A stretch of DNA of 64,000 nucleotides from Kineothrix alysoides. Lineage in GTDB: Bacteria; Bacillota; Clostridia; Lachnospirales; Lachnospiraceae. Below the pieces are notes generated by a model. That model worked only from the letters and a program-made list of their open reading frames with translations. It was not told where the DNA came from and searched no databases. The position numbers and the translations under genes were made by a program. Shown one piece after another: positions 30,770-31,015 of the stretch. The stretch is from assembly GCF_000732725.1 (NCBI RefSeq), contig NZ_JPNB01000002.1:682001-746000 (forward strand), in the 5' to 3' direction. Every line of letters begins with the position of its first letter. Positions within the stretch are counted from its first letter, which is position 1.

Positions 30770-31015
30770 TTACACTGCCAAGGGATTAAAAAACAATAAT
30801 ACAAGTACAAATGCAAATAATAAAAGTAATAATAATGTCTGCACAATTGCCACAAACATAACGGATTGTATGACATCGCTTTTGGTTTCCGGATTTCTGC
30901 CAATAGCTTCAGCTACTTTTGAACCAAGTATTCCCATACCAATTCCCGTCCCCAAAAAAGCAAGACCCAATATCCATCCTATCGCCTGTAAAGTTGCCGC
31001 TAAAATTGATTCCAT
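30770..31015 (-). CDS. F-ATPase c-subunit paralogue lacking the ion-binding carboxylate
   Basis: 81 aa from the ATG at 31015 (GGAGG 5 nt upstream); an upstream ATG at 31027 would add 4 residues. The two-helix hairpin has GxGxGxG packing (GTGIGMG, 22-28) and polar loop GRNP (39-42), typical of c. In helix 2 the position of the essential Asp/Glu (about 20 residues after the loop Arg) is Q59/T60 in AIVQTLLLL. No Asp or Glu occurs in either membrane helix. H+ or Na+ translocation by the usual route is therefore unlikely. It probably forms a ring that couples gamma rotation to other membrane parts (inference). Confidence 0.88.

Follow-up and report, generated by a model that had tools for sequence, protein, structure and literature searches.

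We found that the window, a 64,000-nucleotide stretch of the Kineothrix alysoides genome, carries an 11-gene operon that combines the parts of an F-type rotary ATPase with large surface proteins. The genes are transcribed in the order N-terminal giant, Gly-rich protein, c, b-delta, alpha, gamma, beta, epsilon-like protein, five-span (5-TM) protein, single-span protein and C-terminal giant (Table 1). Catalytic residues of the head are intact and both rotor and stator parts are encoded, while the carboxylate of the c subunit and the whole of subunit a are missing. Ion transport has very probably been lost in this ATPase. We incline to the interpretation that it is an F-type rotary ATPase which has given up ion transport and uses its torque mechanically on surface proteins. 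In its full form, to which we assign a probability of about one half, our proposal is that the cluster represents a new rotary ATPase type, distributed among ordinary Clostridia and gut Bacilli of reduced genome, whose F1, driven by ATP, would turn a complete, ion-free c ring and thereby power a giant surface machine.

Table 1. Features of the operon, listed by window position.
Feature	Position	Strand	Details
Giant surface protein, 3663 aa	13860..24851	minus	TM prediction: membrane helix at each end
Single-span protein with extracellular all-beta domain	24855..25577	minus	240 aa; AF2 pLDDT 96; domain common with two upstream surface proteins
5-TM membrane protein in place of subunit a	25593..26129	minus	TM prediction; sequence homology to a undetectable
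Epsilon-like protein (tentative)	26154..26468	minus	104 aa; named from position and size; NF001846 matches weakly (E 0.02)
Beta subunit, catalytic	26458..27822	minus	454 aa; PF00006, E 6e-67
Gamma subunit	27834..28625	minus	263 aa; PF00231, E 6e-24
Alpha subunit	28622..29944	minus	440 aa from conserved start, longer ORF to 30031; PF00006, E 3e-71
Putative b-delta fusion, peripheral stalk	29931..30746	minus	271 aa; membrane helix at the N-terminus, a long helix, C-terminal domain resembling delta
c-like ring subunit lacking a carboxylate in its helices	30770..31015	minus	81 aa; PF00137, E 3e-9
Codon ACA (Thr60), ion-binding carboxylate position of c	30836..30838	minus	18 residues past the loop Pro, the same spacing as in canonical c, where Glu occupies this column in 52/52
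Single-span surface protein, 556 aa	31044..32714	minus	Shared domain and GGX glycine-rich rod
Giant surface protein, 2180 aa	32783..39325	minus	Anchored at the N-terminus; carries the shared domain, a collagen-like stretch and an Ig-like domain

The c-like protein and its ion-binding position

The c-like gene is real and encodes a true c hairpin of the PF00137 family (37.5 bits against a cut-off of 24). Its product matches solved c subunits, the best being 4bem (2e-14), whose c1 subunit we take to belong to the mixed ring of Acetobacterium woodii, and profile comparison with canonical c gives a probability of 99.7%. We found no match to the protein in a plasmid search. The open reading frame with the upstream ATG spans 30770-31027 on the minus strand (85 aa), but since Met aligns at its position 5 in 63 of 69 orthologues, the start at 31015 (81 aa) selected by the first-pass annotation is the likelier one. 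These 69 sequences comprise the window copy and 68 orthologues taken from 80 loci, which were found via the beta subunit. The first-pass statement that the GxGxGxG packing motif and the GRNP loop are kept proved right for the window protein, in which both are present, and for the family at large: in the 85-aa numbering the ring-packing glycines G26, G28 and G32 occur in 69/69 sequences and G30 in 68/69, and G-R-N-P-E and K of the loop do not vary.

The same annotation held that neither membrane helix of the protein contains an acidic residue. This is indeed so; the acids of the window protein are found at its N-terminus, outside the cell, and in the loop region on the cytoplasmic side (E40, GRNPETKSD). 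As for the position of the lost carboxylate, which had been read as Gln59/Thr60, our alignment places it at Thr60, whereas Gln59 is only its neighbor, off by one residue. Nor is this Gln conserved, as had been suggested for checking; its column is variable, occupied mostly by Leu, Thr or Met, with Gln in 4/69 orthologues. Across the 69 sequences the ion-site residue is Thr (33), Ala (19), Ser (12), Val (3) or Met (2) and is never acidic, whereas the canonical c controls, collected from relatives and aligned the same way, carry Glu there in 52 of 52 cases. Only two orthologues contain Asp or Glu anywhere inside the c helices: L045 has a lone Asp at residue 59 (81-aa numbering), one before the ion site, in a genome where we detected no subunit a, and in L035 a single Glu sits where helix 1 ends on the cytoplasmic side.

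Orthologues with a helix carboxylate, or a sequencing error turning Glu into Gln, had been named as circumstances that could undo the observation. No orthologue has a carboxylate at the site. The site codon is ACA, two base changes away from GAA, and 68 further loci agree; thus, a one-base error cannot account for the missing carboxylate, and both a sequencing error and a Gln-for-Glu change are ruled out. The carboxylate-free c is neither chance nor sequencing error. Between close pairs of c-like genes, synonymous change is near saturation (pS 0.66-0.82) while non-synonymous change amounts to 7-14% (pN 0.07-0.14), and so the gene is under strong purifying selection, which maintains the protein. 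This is hard to reconcile with a decaying extra ATP synthase operon, an explanation that would cover the loss of both the carboxylate and subunit a, but which is also at odds with the invariant catalytic sites and with the retention of the operon in many families and in genomes of 1-2 Mb; we regard it as hardly credible.

Subunit a and the host genomes

Inside the operon we found neither a PF00119 match nor any other homolog of subunit a, which agrees with the first-pass remark that this subunit is missing at the locus. The window genome contains one PF00119 gene only, located within a separate, complete canonical F1Fo operon in which c has the usual Glu. PF00119 was also not matched in 20 of the 39 other genomes holding the cluster, mostly drafts of 1.0-1.9 Mb and many of them MAGs, for which single absences are weak. 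In 19 of these 20 genomes, PF00137 matches nothing except the c protein of the cluster, whose sequence equals that read at the locus, and nineteen such absences are not easily explained by incomplete assembly. The 20th a-less genome yields additional PF00137 matches, some in tandem-hairpin frames, which are probably V-type.

c hairpins without a carboxylate do exist, as in the mixed ring of A. woodii and in V-type c with one empty hairpin. In those rings the other hairpins keep the carboxylate, whereas no carboxylate-bearing c was found in the 19 host genomes. One could imagine, by analogy with the mixed Acetobacterium rings, that the c-like protein joins a housekeeping ring or uses a housekeeping subunit a, so that ions would still be moved; the canonical operon of the window genome and the 4bem c1 subunit as the best solved-structure match would suit such an arrangement. 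Yet a mixed ring with housekeeping c is very unlikely in the 19 hosts because the only c-type protein there is that of the cluster, half of the other hosts (20/39) have no detectable subunit a to borrow, and the cluster encodes an F1 and a stator of its own. Taken over all hosts, we judge this explanation very improbable.

The first-pass deduction that the ring does not translocate ions thus gains support from the carboxylate-free site (acidic in 0/69) and from hosts without subunit a or another c, and would hold for the family as judged from its genes. In consequence, genomes annotated with an ATP synthase through this cluster alone may have no ion-translocating ATPase, which changes the energy metabolism inferred for them.

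F1 head, stator and surface proteins

The beta motifs GGAGVGKT and GERSRE are invariant (80/80), and the Walker A motif, the GER glutamate and the Walker B aspartate of beta are kept in every orthologue. In alpha, the Walker A lysine is present in all sequences and the arginine-finger Arg in 75/81 rows of an alignment that appears to include a few paralogous rows. In Bacilli and Erysipelotrichaceae, some alpha ORFs (L045, L061, L060, L063, L069, L096, L101, L102) bear a low-complexity C-terminal tail of up to about 450 aa, while in L083 and L092 it is the N-terminus that is extended. The epsilon-like protein gave no PDB profile match and its name is tentative; one of its orthologues matches ATP-synt_DE_N (E 0.0025).

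We take the 271-aa protein encoded between c and alpha as a b-delta fusion on the basis of its predicted structure and a profile match. The AF2 model (pLDDT 89) combines a small beta domain and a helical bundle with a 78-residue N-terminal helix, part of which spans the membrane. In Foldseek, its top 35 matches, every one with an E-value >0.01, belong without exception to ATP synthase delta/OSCP or mycobacterial b-delta, and profile comparison pairs its C-terminal part with the C-terminal domain of delta at a probability of 51%. FliH appears among the weaker structural matches. A derivation from b and delta was also proposed for GliD of the Type 2 system (PMC11864180).

The 5-TM protein shows no similarity to subunit a (profile probability 0.2%), has no relative by Pfam, where no match was consistent, or by PDB profile, and contains no conserved charged residue in 71 sequences. 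It is fast-evolving and might carry something unrecognised. In about ten loci it forms one ORF of about 400 aa with the 240-aa single-span protein (both parts were aligned in four), which implies that the 5-TM and extracellular-domain proteins act together. Such a fusion would tie the motor's membrane partner to the extracellular domain. Four fused ORFs, located at L047:11663-12874, L036:11673-12890, L037:5767-7017 and L066:11691-12893, are followed by a second paralogue of the single-span protein.

The extracellular domain of the 240-aa protein recurs at the N-termini of the 556-aa and 2180-aa proteins (profile comparison, probabilities 91-96%), and the 3663-aa giant is possibly its fourth carrier, as suggested by a profile probability of 48%. 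No confident solved fold was found for this domain, for which Foldseek and VIA-align returned weak, partly propeller-like pieces (best Z 3.6). The 2180-aa giant matches the Pfam families Collagen (1e-12) and Big_3_2 (2e-6). In the 3663-aa giant we matched no Pfam domain; its closest orthologues are 33-52% identical over most of 2.7 kaa. The GGX repeat rod is found in about half of the 556-aa orthologues, and in the window this repeat produces long spurious opposite-strand ORFs (31693-32169).

The two giant genes flank those of the ATPase, an arrangement that brings to mind a dedicated export or assembly ATPase, whose hydrolysis would drive secretion or membrane insertion of the giants in the manner of FliI/SctN. 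Alpha and beta are distantly related to FliI/SctN, and the FliH match of the stator protein would fit as well. However, the N-terminal membrane segments of the giants are ordinary and compatible with Sec, and the operon encodes no export-gate proteins. Moreover, gamma fills the F1 head, and the c ring is not a protein channel. We consider a role in export improbable.

Because rotor, ring and stator are kept though the ion path is absent, we infer that the torque serves a purpose other than ion transport. In the mechanism that we propose, F1 (alpha3 beta3 gamma, probably with epsilon) would hydrolyse ATP and turn gamma, which would sit on the kept polar loops of an assembled c ring and rotate it in the membrane. 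The b-delta fusion would hold the alpha3beta3 head still, anchored beside the 5-TM protein, which would stand in for subunit a. No ions would move, the ring being without an ion site and without a subunit a to work against. Torque would instead cross the membrane to the single-span proteins with the common extracellular beta domain and, through contact with them, reach the two giants, which it would move, pull or reset on the outside of the cell. The job performed there may consist in motility, in adhesion or in work on polymers from host or feed. In walled Gram-positive bacteria the envelope may limit movement of the giants, which counts against the mechanical reading. Up to now, the helix carboxylate of the c ring has been treated as common to all rotary ATPases. 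That a family without ion binding is conserved with its ring, stator and F1 suggests that selection can act on ring rotation alone.

Relation to known systems and distribution

With canonical F1Fo/N-ATPases the cluster shares alpha, beta, gamma, a c hairpin with GxGxGxG and the RNP loop, a b-delta stator and probably epsilon. Thus, among the F1Fo features, the head with Walker A and the GER glutamate, gamma and the peripheral stalk (in fused form) are present, but the helix Asp/Glu and the arginine of subunit a are not. In their place the cluster has the 5-TM protein and four surface proteins, and its beta forms a separate clade. Both beta (447.6 bits, cut-off 462.85) and alpha (375 bits, cut-off 484) score below the thresholds of the NCBIfam atpD and atpA families. 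A tree of 66 beta sequences resolves the cluster, canonical beta and mycoplasma Type 3 into one fully supported group each, with the separation of the cluster from Type 3 supported at 100/100. Having long branches and being built without an outgroup, the tree informs on this grouping and not on the branching order of the three.

The precedents for a mechanical reading come, by analogy, from the mycoplasma Type 2 and Type 3 systems. Type 2 drives gliding (PMC11864180), while Type 3 is needed for cleavage of antibodies at the surface (PMC12994834). Like the Type 3 F1-like X0 system (MSC_0618-0624, MIB-MIP), the cluster combines a second F1-like ATPase with co-encoded surface proteins and has no recognised ion path. 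Yet Type 3 lacks a c ring, whereas the cluster keeps c, and it contains a protein with 12 TM spans and an 85-kDa one with two. Against the Type 3 families MSC_0619/MSC_0618, alpha and beta reach 296 and 385.5 bits (cut-offs 520 and 570), and these scores together with the beta tree rule out membership in Type 3. In an NCBIfam search up to E 1, the cluster proteins matched none of the X0-protein models that the collection may contain. The Type 2/G1-ATPase of Mycoplasma mobile is likewise an F1-derived motor without a recognised ion path; it differs from the cluster by the lack of a c ring, a 299-residue N-terminal extension of beta and dimeric chains. Alpha and beta score 379/376 bits against its gliding families MMOB1660/1670 (cut-offs 600/850), and membership in Type 2 is ruled out by these scores and by a beta (454 aa) that has no long N-terminal extension.

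The published Type 3 model with MIB-MIP (PMC12994834) also offers the nearest rival to our reading, namely that F1 acts as a cycling conformational switch, with no full rotation of a ring, and that it uses ATP hydrolysis to open or reset the surface proteins while the c ring is a mere membrane hub. The co-encoding of surface proteins with the ATPase would agree with this, and Type 3 systems do without any c ring, so that a ring is unnecessary for such action. For a switch, however, a strongly conserved ring with its gamma-binding loop and a b-delta stator would be superfluous, and both are kept; we hold this alternative to be unlikely, if deserving of serious attention. Rotation of the ring, our preferred reading, gives these parts a use.

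F1-derived surface machines have been described as mycoplasma-specific (PMC3369863, PMC12994834), and we found no description of a non-mycoplasma system of such kind in the open-access literature other than preprints. If correctly interpreted, the cluster extends these machines to Clostridia, Bacilli and a Bifidobacterium, isolates included. We located about 90 loci, which belong to Lachnospiraceae and further Clostridia, to Bacilli and to a single Bifidobacterium. The operon order is kept over most of 80 loci, with a beta identity of 61-88%. In the isolate Lachnospiraceae G11 the operon is complete, with giants of 2.1 and 3.7 kaa, the latter bearing both membrane helices. In L044 and L054 it is rearranged, c and the Gly-rich gene being located downstream of a giant gene and not ahead of the stator. 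Several genomes carry multiple clusters (L039 and L049 in one; L055, L062 and L067 in one isolate), which suggests paralogous surface machines.

Within Lachnospiraceae, 4/299 sampled genera hold the cluster, as judged by a strong b-delta match, and a close relative of the c-like protein was found in 0/15 same-genus relatives. The Bifidobacterium colobi copy (L033), in turn, nests among Lachnospiraceae copies in the beta tree. Together, these observations point to horizontal spread. The L033 cluster has a GC content of 60%, like that of its actinobacterial host, and is probably an old horizontal transfer. Phage matches for beta, among them the Listeria/Enterococcus records OR848412 and OR846590, were rejected as housekeeping-like members of a different family (about 42% identity); such 'phage' records with bacterial ATP synthase genes probably contain host DNA. 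The flanks of the operon in the window consist of ordinary metabolic and transport genes, including one ORF (43540-45267) in which an ammonium transporter is fused to a P-II regulatory domain.
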